The notes beneath the pieces are model-generated. The model saw nothing but the letters and a program-made list of their open reading frames with translations, was not told the DNA's origin and did not search any database. 64,000 nucleotides of DNA from a virus: positions 64,001-128,000 of IMG/VR virus record IMGVR_UViG_3300031111_000007; one strand, given 5' to 3'. This document shows positions 29,015 to 64,000 of this stretch, one piece after another (within the stretch, counting starts at the first letter, position 1; the number at the start of each line of letters is the position of its first letter). The translations under genes were made by a program, and so were the position numbers.

Positions 29015-29100
29015 TGGTAGGAAGGGGGGGATTTGAACCCCCAATCTCGTAAGAGCAGTAGATTTTGAATCTACCGTGTATGCCGTTCCACCACCTTCCC
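29015..29100 (-). tRNA. tRNA-Leu, anticodon CAA, CCA encoded
   Basis: 86 nt class II cloverleaf. Acceptor GGGAAGG pairs with CCTTCCT (G1-U72), anticodon stem GTAGA/TCTAC with loop TTCAAAA, long variable arm, T arm GGGGG-TTCAAAT-CCCCC, A73 and templated CCA. Reads UUG. Confidence 0.93.
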
Positions 29101-29106
29101 AAATTT

Positions 29107-29192
29107 TGGTGGGCAAGGAGAGATTCGAACTCTCAATCCATTTCAGGCCAAAGATTTTAAGTCTTTGATGTATACCGTTCCAACACTTGCCC
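29107..29192 (-). tRNA. tRNA-Leu, anticodon UAA, CCA encoded
   Basis: 86 nt class II tRNA. Acceptor GGGCAAG/CTTGCCC, anticodon stem AAAGA/TCTTT with loop CTTAAAA, long variable arm, T arm GAGAG-TTCGAAT-CTCTC, A73 and CCA. Reads UUA. Confidence 0.93.
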
Positions 29193-29193
29193 T

Positions 29194-29269
29194 TGGTAGG
29201 GATGAGTGGATTCGAACCACCACTGAATGGTTCCTAAGACCATTGCCTCTGCCGTTGGGCTACATCCCC
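29194..29269 (-). tRNA. tRNA with anticodon UAG (CUA codon), class I body, isotype uncertain
   Basis: 76 nt. Acceptor GGGGATG/CATCCCT (G1-U72), D arm with GG at 18-19, anticodon stem ATGGT/ACCAT with loop CTTAGGA, a 5-nt variable loop TCAGT, T arm GGTGG-TTCGAAT-CCACT, A73, CCA. The anticodon predicts Leu, but bacterial tRNA-Leu has a long variable arm, as the two neighbours do. Confidence 0.85.
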
Positions 29270-30964: not shown

Positions 30965-31593
30965 AACTTAAAATCATCTTCACTTAATAACCATTCATCA
31001 AATCTTCTTTCAAATCTTCTTTCTTTAAATAGAGCTATATCTTTTTTTAGAAATGCTTCTCCTTCTTCTCTATTATATATACAGTAAGCAGGATGAACAG
31101 TAAACAAAACAGGAAACACATACCCATCTCCAATATCACCCTCCATAAAATGACCACGTTCTCTTAGAATACCTCCAAGGTTTCCAGAAAAAATATACTT
31201 AGCATAATTACCCAAACAAAGAATCTTCTCAGGCTTTATAACCTTCAAATACTTCCTAAGATAACTTTGACATGTTTTTATCTGATCCTCATTTGGTTTA
31301 CCATTAGAATTTCCCCTAACAGGTCTACATTGAACTGTATTTATTATGAGAAAATCCCTTGAATTAAAACCTGCTTTATATAAATGTTCAGTTAATATCT
31401 TACCAGCAGGACCAATAAAAGGCGTTTGTTCTCGTACCTCATTTGCTCCCGGTGCCTCACCAATAATAGCATACTGTGAATAAGGAGTCCAATGTGGAAT
31501 AGCTGTACCGTTTGCTTTCAAGCTACATAGATTACATTTATCCACTTTTTTATCAAGTAACTCTAACATCCTAATTTGTTTAGAAGTTAACAT
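30961..31593 (-). CDS. Uracil-DNA glycosylase, family 4 (iron-sulfur)
   Basis: 210 residues. Motif A IGEAPGANEVREQTPFIGPAG and terminal HPAYC motif define the fold; C20-x2-C23 plus later Cys in NTVQCRP and KTCQSYL give the four ligands of the 4Fe-4S cluster of family 4 enzymes. Removes uracil from DNA in repair. Coupled by one-base overlap to the replicative helicase gene, so produced with replication proteins. Confidence 0.9.
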   Translation of the reverse strand: MLTSKQIRMLELLDKKVDKCNLCSLKANGTAIPHWTPYSQYAIIGEAPGANEVREQTPFIGPAGKILTEHLYKAGFNSRDFLIINTVQCRPVRGNSNGKPNEDQIKTCQSYLRKYLKVIKPEKILCLGNYAKYIFSGNLGGILRERGHFMEGDIGDGYVFPVLFTVHPAYCIYNREEGEAFLKKDIALFKERRFERRFDEWLLSEDDFKL

Positions 31594-32945
31594 TATTCAC
31601 CACCATGCACAATCTGGTTTCTGGTATCACCTGAGATTGTAGCATCCTCTATCCATTCATCCATCTCTGATGCGTCATACATCTTTAAGCTACGTTTGTC
31701 AAGATAAAATTTATCAATCGTTCCTACCAATCCACCAATCCTTGATTTTGTAATCTTGTAAAGGACTTCAGATTCATATATCATTTCGTTTTCATCTGTT
31801 CCTAAAATCGCCATGAAATCAGCAGTAGCAGGTATTCCCATTGATTCAGCAATATGATTAAAATCAATCTCCGCAAATGTGGTATAGAATCCTTCTCTGT
31901 TCAACTGACTGACTGATATAATAGGACACTTAAACTCAAATGATAATGCTCTAAGTTCTTCTGATATAGCCTTGATGTCTTCATACATACTACCTTTATT
32001 CTTATATGCAGTTCTCATAAGGTTAATATAATCAACATAAACAATATCAGGTTTTATATCTCTAATCTGTAATTCTCTTAGATACATTCTGAAATCCAAA
32101 ATAGATGCTGCACCAGTAGGATATTGTTTGATAAAGAGCTTACCTAAATTCTCACCATCCTTAACCTCATTAAGACCTCTGGCTAATCTTCTTCTATAAT
32201 CTGTTGATAGATACATCCTGTTCATATCAAGACCAGTAAGAATACTATCAAACCGTTGAGCAAAAGCATCTTGTGACATTTCAAGAGTGAGAAGTACAAC
32301 ATTATGACCATGAAGAACTTGCCTTGCTGCAAAATTCGCCATTAAATTTGATTTACCACCATGTATCTTTGCTGTAAAAACACTAAATGTTAAGGCAGGA
32401 AATCCACCATTGATAATCTCATCAAAGGCAGGGAAGTAAGTTGGTATTCTATCTTCTGTTGCTGAAAAAATTCTCCTAAGTCTTTCTCTCATATTACCAA
32501 AATAATCCAAACCCAAATCTATCTTGATATCCTTTATGAGAGCATCTTCAATACGTTTCTGGATGGATGATCTTCTCTCAGGGTCTTCTACTTCATCCAC
32601 AGAATCAATGATAGCTTGTTTAAGGGCTTTTTCTTTTAGATAATCATTTGTCTGCTCCAATAGAAATGGATAACTTTCAGCAATATCAAACTGTGCCTGT
32701 TCTGCTTCCTCAATTGCATCAGTAAGCTCATTGATATTCTCAGATGAATTGATAATCGCATCCTTATCAGGGATTGAATGATACTCATCCACATAATCCT
32801 TGCAAAATGAAAAGGCATGTCTTACACTTGGATCATCAAAATACTCAGGTTCAAAGACGCTCGACAAAAGTGTTAAATAATCTCGGTCAGTTATCATACC
32901 TTTTAGTATAATACGTTCTAAAAAATCCGAATTTAATCTCTCCAT
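31593..32945 (-). CDS. 41: Replicative helicase, DnaB / T4 gp41-like
   Basis: 450 residues. Helical N-terminal domain (about 1-160) and RecA-like ATPase with modified Walker A AKIHGGKSNLMANF (about 192-205), DVVLLTLEMS, Walker B DIVYVDYINLM and a VSQLNREG sensor loop. Expected to be the hexameric 5'-3' helicase. Starts downstream of the GGTWAYC promoter, with an ATGGAAAGG-type start region; very short leader. Confidence 0.9.
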   Translation of the reverse strand: MERLNSDFLERIILKGMITDRDYLTLLSSVFEPEYFDDPSVRHAFSFCKDYVDEYHSIPDKDAIINSSENINELTDAIEEAEQAQFDIAESYPFLLEQTNDYLKEKALKQAIIDSVDEVEDPERRSSIQKRIEDALIKDIKIDLGLDYFGNMRERLRRIFSATEDRIPTYFPAFDEIINGGFPALTFSVFTAKIHGGKSNLMANFAARQVLHGHNVVLLTLEMSQDAFAQRFDSILTGLDMNRMYLSTDYRRRLARGLNEVKDGENLGKLFIKQYPTGAASILDFRMYLRELQIRDIKPDIVYVDYINLMRTAYKNKGSMYEDIKAISEELRALSFEFKCPIISVSQLNREGFYTTFAEIDFNHIAESMGIPATADFMAILGTDENEMIYESEVLYKITKSRIGGLVGTIDKFYLDKRSLKMYDASEMDEWIEDATISGDTRNQIVHGGE

Positions 32946-32953
32946 GGAAAAGC

Positions 32954-32984
32954 ACTATAACACATTTTGAGAAAAAAGGTTACC
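32954..32984 (-). promoter_or_regulatory. GGTWAYC-class promoter for the helicase operon
   Basis: Minus strand GGTAACC (32978-32984), exactly 18 bases including a T6 tract and ending ATGTGT, then TATAGT (32954-32959). Puts transcription start just before the helicase ATG. See the matching sites at 32978-33008, 57784-57814 and 63472-63502. Confidence 0.8.
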
Positions 32985-33008
32985 TTTTTTTTCACTTTAT
33001 GTTATACT
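32978..33008 (+). promoter_or_regulatory. GGTWAYC-class promoter for uvsY-uvsW
   Basis: Plus strand GGTTACC (32978-32984), 18 bases with T8 and ending ATGT, then TATACT (33003-33008). It shares its upstream box with the divergent helicase promoter. Confidence 0.8.
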
Positions 33009-33038
33009 ATTTTTCATAAATAATAAAGGACACTATAG

Positions 33039-33461
33039 ATGGAAGAAAATAACGAATTAAAACAAATATTTGATCAATTACATGAAGAACATCCCATTGA
33101 TGAATTAGCCACCTTTTCAGAGATTGATATAGCTGAGAAGTTGAAAAAAAATGAGATGATGATCATTAAGTACAAAGAGATGTATATTAAAGAGCTTCAA
33201 AAATACGAAGAACTTGAAGAAAAAATGGAAAGTCTCAAAGGAATGAGATATAAGCATTACAAATTTGAAGATGATCATGAATGGCAAAAGAAAGAGATAG
33301 AAGAATACTGTCTACCATCTGATCCTGCCATAAGAAGAATGAAAAGAATACTTGCAAAACAACAAGTAAGAGTTAGGTTTTTTGATATGTGCCATCGTGC
33401 TTTTTCTTCAATGGGATGGAGCATGAAAGTTTTTACCGAAAGAGAACGCATGGGATTATAA
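33039..33461 (+). CDS. uvsY: UvsY-like recombination mediator
   Basis: 140 residues, all helical; T4 UvsY is of nearly the same length. The core YKHYKFEDDHEWQKKEIEEYCLPSDPAIRRMKRILAKQQVRVRFF followed by HRAFSSMGWSMK corresponds to the conserved second half of UvsY, which loads the UvsX recombinase on gp32-coated ssDNA. It overlaps uvsW (TAATG), a known neighbour. AAAGGA before the start. Confidence 0.8.
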   Translation: MEENNELKQIFDQLHEEHPIDELATFSEIDIAEKLKKNEMMIIKYKEMYIKELQKYEELEEKMESLKGMRYKHYKFEDDHEWQKKEIEEYCLPSDPAIRRMKRILAKQQVRVRFFDMCHRAFSSMGWSMKVFTERERMGL

Positions 33462-34855
33462 TGTACCAAACAAAACTATTATTAGGCGATAACTATAAAA
33501 TCAAAATCATTAGCGATCATGATACATATCTGAGTGATATGAAAGAAGAATTTGCTATTCATGTACCAAATTACTTTTTCATGGGAAAATATAAAGCTGG
33601 ATTTTGGGATGGTAAGGTACATTTTATTACTGAGAGAGGATTTCTACCATATGGATTGTTGTTGGATTTTATGAAAACTTCTCTTAAATTATACCCCAAC
33701 ATAAAAATCGTTCCTGATGATAGAGTCAAAGCATTATTCAAAGGACCAGATATACCAATAAAATATGATCTGTCTTTAGAACCAAGACCATATCAAAAAG
33801 AAACAATAGAATCAACAATAAGATTCACCAAAGGTATAATACAATCTGCTACTGCTTCAGGTAAGTCACTAGCAATATCATACATCCTGAAGAACCTACT
33901 TGACAATCAACATATAACCAATGTGAGTAGAGGATTAGTAGTTGTTCCATCAAAGTCACTTGTTGAGCAGTTCAAAGGTGATATGATCGAATATGGTATG
34001 CCTGAGAATTCCATTGGTAAAGTTTATGACAAATATAAACAATGGGATAATAACATCGTAATATCAACATGGCAAACATTGAGAAACAATCATGATAAGC
34101 TGCCTATGTATGATTGTATTATAGGAGATGAATGTCACCAGAACAAAGCACATGAATTAAAAAAGATATTTTCAAAAACCAAAGCACAATATAGGTTGGG
34201 ATTTACAGGAACACTACCTACTCATATTACTGATCTATATAATATCAAGAGCTACTTAGGACCAGTATTAAAAGAATATCCATCAGGACTGCTTGCTGAA
34301 CAAGGATATATAGCTCAATGTACAGTAAAAGTTCATAGATTAAAATATCCTCATGTTGAAAACAAAACCTATCGTGGTATAAAAGATGAAGTGTTTAATG
34401 ACCGTGAGAGATTGGAATTGATAGGTAAGATCGTCAATGGTATAGATGATAATATATTGCTGTTGGTAACCTATAAAGCTGAAGGTGAGAAATTACGTCA
34501 GATGTTGAGAAGAAGAAGTAAAAGAGAAGTAGTATTTCTATCTGGTGATGATAAGACTGATACCAGAGAAGAATGGAGACAAAAGATGATCAAGGAAAAG
34601 AATATTGCCTTGATTGCTACATACGGTATATTTCAACAAGGAATCAATATACCAAACCTAAAACATGGTATATTAGCTTCACCTTCTAAATCTAAAATAA
34701 GGGTACTTCAATCTGTAGGTAGGACTTTAAGAGCACATAATGAGGAAAGAGCTTATATCTATGATATTATAGATGAATGTAAATTTCTATCAACACATGG
34801 TGAGAAAAGATTAGATTACTATGAGAATGAAGGATTTGAGATAGAGGAAATCTAA
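33461..34855 (+). CDS. uvsW: UvsW-like superfamily 2 helicase
   Basis: 464 residues from the ATG that overlaps the uvsY stop (an upstream in-frame ATG has no ribosome site and lies in uvsY). N-terminal ssDNA-binding-like domain (about 1-85), then helicase motifs: RPYQKETIE, SATASGKS (motif I), IIGDECHQ (II), GFTGT (III), and VLQSVGRTLR (VI). UvsW resolves R-loops and branched DNA in T4. Convergent with the next minus-strand gene, overlapping by 4 bases. Confidence 0.93.
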   Translation: MYQTKLLLGDNYKIKIISDHDTYLSDMKEEFAIHVPNYFFMGKYKAGFWDGKVHFITERGFLPYGLLLDFMKTSLKLYPNIKIVPDDRVKALFKGPDIPIKYDLSLEPRPYQKETIESTIRFTKGIIQSATASGKSLAISYILKNLLDNQHITNVSRGLVVVPSKSLVEQFKGDMIEYGMPENSIGKVYDKYKQWDNNIVISTWQTLRNNHDKLPMYDCIIGDECHQNKAHELKKIFSKTKAQYRLGFTGTLPTHITDLYNIKSYLGPVLKEYPSGLLAEQGYIAQCTVKVHRLKYPHVENKTYRGIKDEVFNDRERLELIGKIVNGIDDNILLLVTYKAEGEKLRQMLRRRSKREVVFLSGDDKTDTREEWRQKMIKEKNIALIATYGIFQQGINIPNLKHGILASPSKSKIRVLQSVGRTLRAHNEERAYIYDIIDECKFLSTHGEKRLDYYENEGFEIEEI

Positions 34856-56724: not shown

Positions 56725-57728
56725 TACATTTTATCCAATTCAGCCAAAAGTTCTTCATCATCAAGAGCACCAATATCGCCTGATGATTCTTCTTGTTTTT
56801 CAGGTTCTGGTTCAGGAGTAGGTTCAGGAGTAGATTCTTCTCTTGGAGCTTCCTGTCTTTCTTCCTGTTGTGGAGCTTCTTCTCTTGGAGCTTCTTCTCT
56901 CATACCAGCACCAGACTCTACATCTGTATATCCATTAGCAAGACATTCGGTTTCTACCAAATCCCACAAGAATTCAGCTTTGAGAATTTCTACAACCTTA
57001 TCCTTGTCAGTTTCCTTGGATTCAATATATCCCTTCAGACTTGTACAGGTTTCCAACAATGCCTTAATCTCATCATCTGAACCCAATGCATACTGTCTTC
57101 TTGAGAAGTCAGAAGTAGAGTAATCAGGCCATGTCTTACCACCGTCTTGTGGTTTGGTTGAAAGAACATTGATAATAAAGTTTCTTCCTTCCTCACCCGG
57201 ATCAAAGATTTGCATACCATAACCTTCATCTCTATTTGTGATTTCTTTCTTGACTTTCTGCTCAACTTTAGATGGGAATTCATACAGCTTAACCTTACCA
57301 ACAACTTTATTCTCATCGTCTTTCTCATCATCTCTGTTGTCTTTTACGATAAAGAAGTTAGCAACATTCTTCTCTTTCTTTTTAAGCTGATATGCTTGTG
57401 CCTTATCATCTTTGGTTCCATTATACAGCTTAGAAACCGCTGAACAAATAGGACAGAATGCTTTATAGTCATGGGTTTTGGGGCAAAATACAAACTTCCA
57501 TGACTCCCCTGATTTCCAGAAGTGAAAATAGTACCTCTTATAGAACTCACCTTCGGGATCAGGCAAAAATCTACCTTCATAGACTTTTGGTGATTCGACT
57601 GTACCTTTTTGTGGTGTATCCCAAACAAGATCAGAACGAATATAACCACCTGTATTAGCAGTATCCTTTTCCTCAATTTTCTCCTTTTGAAATGATTCAA
57701 ATAGGTCTTTCTTAATCCATTTACTCAT
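56724..57728 (-). CDS. 32: ssDNA-binding protein gp32-like
   Basis: 334 residues. N-terminal basic/aromatic segment (1-20), OB-fold core with zinc site H69, C82, C92, C95 (FCPKTHDYKAFCPIC), and a long acidic Pro/Glu tail ending DDEELLAELDKM, all as in T4 gp32. Coats ssDNA and recruits replication and recombination proteins. GAAAGGAG precedes the start, and a GGTWAYC-class promoter lies about 55 bases upstream. No terminator is visible before the sugar cluster, so both may share transcripts. Confidence 0.9.
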   Translation of the reverse strand: MSKWIKKDLFESFQKEKIEEKDTANTGGYIRSDLVWDTPQKGTVESPKVYEGRFLPDPEGEFYKRYYFHFWKSGESWKFVFCPKTHDYKAFCPICSAVSKLYNGTKDDKAQAYQLKKKEKNVANFFIVKDNRDDEKDDENKVVGKVKLYEFPSKVEQKVKKEITNRDEGYGMQIFDPGEEGRNFIINVLSTKPQDGGKTWPDYSTSDFSRRQYALGSDDEIKALLETCTSLKGYIESKETDKDKVVEILKAEFLWDLVETECLANGYTDVESGAGMREEAPREEAPQQEERQEAPREESTPEPTPEPEPEKQEESSGDIGALDDEELLAELDKM

Positions 57729-57783: not shown

Positions 57784-57814
57784 ACTATAACACAGATGGA
57801 AAAAAAAGATAACC
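57784..57814 (-). promoter_or_regulatory. GGTWAYC-class promoter for gp32 (SSB)
   Basis: Minus strand GGTTATC (57808-57814), exactly 18 bases with T8 and ending CTGTGT, then TATAGT (57784-57789). The TGT immediately before the -10 is an extended -10. Confidence 0.8.
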
Positions 57815-57830
57815 TATTTTTTTTAGAAAA

Positions 57831-60322: not shown

Positions 60323-61102
60323 TTACTTCTTGAAAAACTTCTTTCTTGACACTGAACCAAACATGATCAGACCAGTTCCCAATAGAAGCATTGAAGCAGG
60401 TTCAGGCACAGGAGCAGCAGTTTGACCAATGAGATTATCATTACCACATTCCATAGTAAAATGGGCAAGAAAAGTTCCTGTATAAATATCTGAATTAAGA
60501 ATAGTAGTCATATCGAAACCATCCACAAAATAAATACCAGAATTAACATAATGATTAAATTGTCCACTATCCAATGCTGTTACACCATTATTAACATCAA
60601 AAGCCCATGGATTTGATTCAGATAGATTCTTAGGTTCAGCTACATCCAATAAAGTTCCATCATCGATAGAGTATATGTCCCATGTTCCATTATTCCAATC
60701 AACATCAAAAACATAATCATATCCTTTGTCATTTGGACCACCATCAACACCATAAACAGCATCACCATCAACATCAATAAATATATCACCGGAAGTATAA
60801 CTATATCCACTTACACCATTAATAAAATCCCATCCACCAGACATACCAAGCATATTATTAGAATTACTATAATACATTGCTTCTAAATCCCACGCTTGAG
60901 TATTAATCATTCCCGGTTCAACTTCATTATCCTCATTTTCACTATTATACCATGAATTACCACTGAAATCTTTTCGACCATCATAAATCGTAATGTTTTC
61001 CATACCCGTTTCTATAAATTGAACAGGTACTGCCATTGCCTGACTTCCAAAGAACAAAACCCCTACCAATAAAACAAATACTACCAACAAATTTTTCTTC
61101 AT
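60323..61102 (-). CDS. PEP-CTERM exported protein
   Basis: 259 residues. Signal peptide (about 1-24, ending QAMA), a body with many Asn/Gly/Asp/Trp (SGNSWYNSENEDNE, YSNSNNMLGMSGGWDF, DIFIDVDGDAVYGVDGGPND) typical of PEP-CTERM proteins, and a C-terminal VPEPASMLLLGTGLIMFGSV followed by RKK: the PEP motif, hydrophobic segment and basic end recognised by exosortase. Strong sigma70 promoter and GGAG site. A phage coding an exosortase substrate is unusual; the host must supply the exosortase for processing. Confidence 0.9.
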   Translation of the reverse strand: MKKNLLVVFVLLVGVLFFGSQAMAVPVQFIETGMENITIYDGRKDFSGNSWYNSENEDNEVEPGMINTQAWDLEAMYYSNSNNMLGMSGGWDFINGVSGYSYTSGDIFIDVDGDAVYGVDGGPNDKGYDYVFDVDWNNGTWDIYSIDDGTLLDVAEPKNLSESNPWAFDVNNGVTALDSGQFNHYVNSGIYFVDGFDMTTILNSDIYTGTFLAHFTMECGNDNLIGQTAAPVPEPASMLLLGTGLIMFGSVSRKKFFKK

Positions 61103-63471: not shown

Positions 63472-63502
63472 TCTATATCACATTCAGTAAAAAAAGATAA
63501 CC
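63472..63502 (-). promoter_or_regulatory. GGTWAYC-class promoter for the zinc-ribbon operon
   Basis: Minus strand GGTTATC (63496-63502), 18 bases with T7 and ending TGTGA, then TATAGA (63472-63477). Confidence 0.75.
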
Positions 63503-63509
63503 CATTTTT

Positions 63510-64000
63510 TTATTTTTTATTTTCATCATTATCTTTTTTTTCTTTTTCTTCATAAGCATTATTATCTCGCTTATGGTATTTCGATTCAAGATCACGTTTC
63601 AATGCTCTCTTGACTTTCTTTAAATCACCAACCCTAATCTCATCCAATTGATCATCACTTTCAAGACGATCAATCGTACCCATGATAATAGTTCGAATAT
63701 CATCAGCATCAACATGAACATCAGCATATTCTTTACTCCTGATTGTAGCTTCAACTGAATCACAGATCATTAATACGGCAGCTTCCAATGTGGTAGGTGG
63801 ATTGGTATTACGATATCGAAACATATCTTCCTCAATACCAGTTGCAGCATTAGCCAAAGATTTAATAACTGTATTGCCATGGTGTTGAGTAATAGGTGGG
63901 ATTAATGTAGATGGAAAATCAACCATCTGACATAATATCAATGCTCCATCTGCAATATGCTTCGATATCAAATGAAATGAAACCATAGGTTCCAATTTCT
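63510..64000 (-). CDS. PgpH-like HD-domain phosphodiesterase, C-terminal part (partial)
   Basis: Open to the right edge; only the last 163 or so residues are in the window. LISKHIADGALILCQ, PPITQHHGNTVIKSL, EDMFRYRNTNPPTTLEAAVLMICDSVEA and a DQLDEIRVGDLKKVKRAL segment closely follow the C-terminus of 7TMR-HD/PgpH proteins, which hydrolyse c-di-AMP in bacteria; HH and the D in CDSVEA are metal ligands in that family. The N-terminal HD half is outside. A phage protein of this type might degrade a cyclic nucleotide signal; that is inference. Confidence 0.8.
   Translation of the reverse strand, partial: KLEPMVSFHLISKHIADGALILCQMVDFPSTLIPPITQHHGNTVIKSLANAATGIEEDMFRYRNTNPPTTLEAAVLMICDSVEATIRSKEYADVHVDADDIRTIIMGTIDRLESDDQLDEIRVGDLKKVKRALKRDLESKYHKRDNNAYEEKEKKDNDENKK

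Follow-up and report, generated by a model that had tools for sequence, protein, structure and literature searches.

The window analysed here is a stretch of 64,000 nucleotides, bases 64001-128000 of a 132,451-bp virus record that belongs to an uncultured T4-like virus of bacteria. Within it, a 93-bp intergenic region (32946-33038) lies between a minus-strand DnaB-like helicase gene and a plus-strand UvsY-like gene that is followed by UvsW. All three gene calls of the original prediction proved right (profile matches below); names beyond these three rest on a reading of the translations, and the gp55-like sigma factor is named by resemblance. The genes downstream on the minus strand (the helicase-UDG-PhoH-DNA polymerase side) would, judging from the sequence, form one operon. 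Three consecutive tRNA-Leu genes (anticodons CAA, TAA and TAG) lie at 29015-29269 (-), with PhoH-like and DNA polymerase genes on either side. GTDB genomes searched with the helicase alignment yielded no relative, and therefore no host is assigned. At 60323-61102 (-), a secreted-looking protein of 259 aa carries the C-terminal sequence VPEPASMLLLGTGLIMFGSVSRKKFFKK, a PEP-CTERM-like sorting signal that is unusual for a phage and may point to an exosortase-bearing host. The features of the intergenic region and its flanks are as follows.

31593..32945, minus strand: DnaB-like replicative helicase (PF03796, phrog_19), first gene of the minus operon
33039..33461, plus strand: UvsY-like recombination mediator (phrog_231, E 6e-6)
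33416..34855, plus strand: UvsW-like helicase (UvsW_N, PF21241); the listed ORF opens at 33389, the first ATG is at 33416
32978..32984, both strands: shared box GGTTACC/GGTAACC, at -37 to -31 of both promoters when the -10 is set at -12 to -7
32968..32994, both strands: dyad TGAGAAAAAAGGTTACCTTTTTTTTCA, containing both -35 regions
32980..32985, plus strand: -35 register TTACCT of the uvsY promoter, 17-nt spacer
32977..32982, minus strand: -35 register TAACCT of the helicase promoter, 17-nt spacer
33000..33008, plus strand: extended -10 TGTTATACT of the uvsY-uvsW promoter, predicted start ~33015
32954..32962, minus strand: extended -10 TGTTATAGT of the helicase promoter, predicted start ~32947, about 2 bases 5' of the ATG at 32945
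33025..33030, plus strand: Shine-Dalgarno-like AAAGGA of uvsY

A single box serving two divergent promoters had been predicted, and the coordinates confirm its placement: GGTTACC at 32978-32984 reads GGTAACC on the other strand, and 18 bases separate it from the -10 hexamer identically on both strands (TATACT, 33003-33008, plus; TATAGT, 32959-32954, minus; TGT precedes each). The palindromic character ascribed to the box also stands, within a dyad that is wider than was claimed (32968-32994) and whose palindrome score was equalled by none of 300 shuffles. Each strand of this dyad carries an A-run that could serve as the UP element of the promoter reading away from it.

T4-like early promoters combine GTTTAC, which occupies -36 to -31, with an A-rich stretch from -40 to -44 (PMC1524935), and carry UP, -35, TGn and -10 elements (PMC2988021). 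Like these, both promoters of the window pair combine an A-rich upstream tract, the -35 register and an extended -10 ahead of T4-like phage genes for replication and recombination. The register of the -35 element is right; its sequence is GTTAYC in the window phage, and exact GTTTAC/TTTACA occurs in many relatives. Unlike the T4-type promoters, those described here have a GGTTAYC box with a T-tract, exist in only six copies, and in one place are fused back to back. The fit to a sigma70 -35 is weak (TTACCT matches TTGACA at 3/6 positions, TAACCT at 2/6).

Recurrence of the promoter class in the genome

Is the shared box exclusive to the divergent site? By itself, the 7-mer GGTTACC occurs no more often than chance predicts (twice in the window against 2.7 expected). 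TGNTATANT has a frequency of 3.3e-4 per strand position, so that two of them flanking a given site at one fixed spacing are expected at ~1e-7. A scan of the whole virus record found six promoters at five places in 132 kb, each with an A-tract, GGTWAYC and a T-tract and, across an 18-nt gap from the box, a hexamer resembling TATANT (TATAGA in one of the six). In leave-one-out scoring with the 40-bp pattern, each of the six reaches 27-41 bits and every other site in the 132-kb record at most 17.4; the full matrix gave a maximum of 14 on simulated sequence. The box is therefore not unique to the divergent pair, since the class includes four one-way promoters:

57784..57823, minus strand: before a gp32-like ssDNA-binding protein gene (56727-57728)
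63472..63511, minus strand: before a 95-aa zinc-ribbon gene (start 63437)
outside the window: before a gp55-like late sigma gene, then gp46/47-like, UvsX-like and dUTPase-like genes
a further promoter: before a gene of ~100 aa

Three of the four one-way boxes are GGTTATC, which is non-palindromic. A run of 6-8 T directly follows the box at all six GGTTAYC promoters and is absent from two related loci, L003 and L036; the six promoters differ hardly at all in box and T-tract, and plain sigma70 recognition does not require such a tract. At G000:C1:52302-52345, outside the window, an ATG of the gp55-like sigma ORF falls within the TATAAT of its promoter (TATAATGGCAAG); the usable one is probably the following ATG in frame, which AAAGGA precedes. 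Late-type TATAAATA motifs occur elsewhere in the genome; one of them, at G000:C1:48269 (-), immediately precedes the UvsX-like gene, a gene that the gp55 promoter has downstream of it as well.

Conservation of the divergent pair in related phages

The 3.3-kb locus matched no annotated phage at the nucleotide level, IMG/VR searched with UvsY as single query gave none that was confirmed, and gp32 as query returned only two distant loci; uvsY loci of relatives were reached via helicase loci. Our sample comprises 32 non-redundant loci with a uvsY homologue. A pair was called when both promoters scored >13 and at most 7 of 200 shuffles were as good. By this paired score, devised after viewing the same sequences so that the shuffle counts are a check and not an independent test, 25 of the 32 loci have a significant back-to-back pair and 7 do not. 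In relatives, TTWAC-N18-TATANT was no more frequent than its reversed-pattern control, and the pattern is thus no evidence by itself; we rely on the paired test instead.

The pairs of relatives are mostly canonical on both sides (TTTACA/TTAACA-17-TATAAT-like). Each -35-like element is fixed to its own -10, whereas the distance between the two promoters varies from 42 to 70 bp. Measured from -10 to -10, it is 42 bp in L021, 43 in the window and L019, 44-46 in L022, L027, L054, L055, L056 and L068, 48 in L036 and L069, 50-56 in many loci, 61 in L064 and 70 in L034. Where the -10s are widely spaced, the two boxes are separate. Near-perfect palindromes occur in the window and in L019, L021, L022, L024, L027 and L036. 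On the L003 contig the half-site ATTAAC stands alone, 18 nt from the -10, at the one-way promoters of the gp32 and Zn-ribbon orthologues. The original prediction proposed conservation in related phages as its check and named relatives without the shared box as a refutation, which applies in part: the divergent pair is kept, but the shared box is absent from L020, L028, L037, L031-L035, L066 and others, which have both promoters with two separate boxes. The conserved unit is the divergent pair, of which the shared box is the most compact form.

The left operon reaches the helicase directly or via a small gene, which is GGQ release-factor-like in L031, L033 and L034 and encodes 120-130 aa in L007, L008, L052, L064 and L066. 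The GGQ release-factor-like gene lies behind gp46/47 in the window phage, and between the divergent promoter and the helicase in L031, L033, L034 and L029, where it occupies the predicted leaderless position instead of the helicase. In the three Synechococcus phages in which both genes were matched, helicase and UvsW are ~23 kb apart; the helicase/uvsY-uvsW neighbourhood is therefore not general among T4-likes.

Position of the start codons

The less expected part of the finding is the predicted leaderless side. In the window, the helicase ATG lies 8 nt past the -10 without a Shine-Dalgarno motif, and a leaderless helicase mRNA is predicted. The helicase ATG is found 6-8 nt past the -10 in all nine helicase-first loci of the window's clade, mostly without Shine-Dalgarno, and from this distance the expected start is 0-2 nt 5' of the ATG. 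This absence is not absolute, as short purine runs occur near the start in a few relatives (AGGAG in L024, GAGG in L027). A normal leader is seen in L058, a helicase-first locus that is more distant. In L034, L031 and L033 it is the inserted gene, not the helicase, that starts 7-9 nt from the -10; in L066, L056, L052, L055, L068 and L054 it is uvsY, at 6-9 nt from its own -10, although in some loci the uvsY start is a longest-ORF choice that could be wrong; and in L007 and L008 the genes on both sides are close to their -10s. Altogether, 20 of the 25 pairs have at least one gene starting 6-9 nt after a -10, usually without Shine-Dalgarno, and these genes (the helicase here, uvsY in other phages) look leaderless by this spacing.

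An extended -10 at 5-10 nt precedes no other gene of the 125 in the window genome, of which 84 carry a Shine-Dalgarno-like motif. The -10-proximal start codon is therefore a property of this locus. In Deinococcus-Thermus, -10-adjacent leaderless genes, with a -10 few bases before the start codon and no ribosome binding site, are common genome-wide (PMC12340547); the helicase resembles these genes in both respects, but here the arrangement is confined to this one promoter. In a tree of the loci, left-leaderless and right-leaderless labels cluster. Because its deep forks are weak, we state neither the direction nor the number of switches. We consider it rather unlikely, as a whole, that a bidirectional promoter held across the clade is coupled to one leaderless partner, that the side changed in evolution, and that a phage factor rewrote the window's -35 box at all six promoters at once.

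Reading of the shared box

What, then, is the box? We think it probable that the site is a bidirectional promoter of the T4 early type with overlapping -35s, bound by polymerase in either orientation, with a leaderless helicase message. The sequence itself shows which elements are present and how they are spaced, that they recur in the genome, that the pair is conserved and how far each -10 lies from its ATG; that both promoters fire, and fire early, is inferred. Each side has its own A-rich upstream tract and extended -10 together with a -35 element, and the -35 elements of the window phage would be so close that seven base pairs are common to both. RNA polymerase with a host sigma70-like factor, possibly aided by a phage factor, would transcribe one side at a time, helicase-UDG-PhoH-DNA polymerase or uvsY-uvsW. 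As both -35 elements lie on the same base pairs, the size of the polymerase footprint suggests that the two orientations are not occupied together, and the operons would compete for polymerase rather than being co-activated. The helicase message would start ~2 bases before its ATG and be translated leaderless; the uvsY message would have a normal leader with a Shine-Dalgarno motif.

The original prediction held that one bound factor could switch both operons. This is not the best reading, as the box occupies the -35 place of T4-type early promoters and is found at the four one-way promoters too, and relatives have one sigma70-like element per promoter, 17 nt from its -10, with a varying distance between the two promoters where a single operator would keep rigid spacing; in L003, moreover, the half-site serves one-way promoters by itself. 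A dimeric repressor or activator controlling both operons together from the dyad would be in keeping with the near-perfect palindromes of the window and six relatives, but from one relative to another the distance between half-sites differs by more than 20 bp, and each half-site is fixed only relative to its own -10. Single half-sites at the one-way promoters of L003 and the non-palindromic boxes of the window phage likewise argue against a dimer, and we regard this explanation as very unlikely. It is scarcely credible that the inverted repeat acts as an intrinsic terminator or arose by chance in AT-rich DNA: a terminator scan does list 32968-32994, but the genes diverge from the repeat so that nothing is read into it, and the pattern recurs in the genome. 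Conservation of the paired promoters refutes this candidate.

A third alternative is a phage-encoded activator, MotA-like in action but not homologous to MotA, that binds GGTTAYC at each of the six promoters in place of the contacts made by sigma region 4; in the divergent pair it would be the single bound factor of the original prediction. Box and T-tract are nearly invariant within the genome and yet the box is a poor sigma70 -35. In the two genomes with several sites, the box is uniform within each and differs between them (GGTWAYC in the window phage, ATTAAC in L003), which suggests a changing trans reader. Most relatives, however, have near-consensus sigma70 -35s (TTTACA, TTAACA) at the same place. 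T4 middle promoters, which have the MotA box TGCTT 12 +/- 1 bp from the -10 in a phage encoding MotA and AsiA, similarly place a special box and a sigma70 -10 before genes of similar function, but position and sequence differ: no MotA box at that distance is present at the window pair, and our box is centred near -34 rather than -30. Pfam profiles for MotA and AsiA (PF09114, PF09010) had no match in the virus record, a search that a diverged or unrelated factor would escape. We hold such an activator to be fairly unlikely. GGTTAYC would be read either by host sigma/polymerase helped by UP tracts and the extended -10, or by a phage factor.

The bidirectional early promoter remains our preferred reading. 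The -35 element stands alone at one-way promoters and keeps its register in relatives, which indicates one -35 per promoter, the palindrome being two of them back to back. In E. coli and Salmonella, bidirectional promoters share a -10 and have starts 7-25 bp apart (PMC12825309, PMC10268837). Like them, the window pair has pseudo-symmetric DNA on which polymerase could sit either way round, and potential competition; unlike them, it shares the -35, its predicted starts are ~68 bp apart, and its -10s, 43 bp apart, show no reciprocal overlap. The E. coli promoters show little competition at basal activity and strong competition once one direction is raised (PMC12825309), so that competition at the window site would depend on promoter strength.

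On this reading the site is a compact form of a T4-type early promoter pair and not a new kind of switch. If our reading is right, one binding choice by polymerase would set the balance between the replicative helicase operon and the recombination operon, and one of the partners would bypass Shine-Dalgarno initiation. The relatives, with their varied spacing, box sequence and leaderless side, would provide a natural series for polymerase competition at a shared -35 rather than a shared -10.
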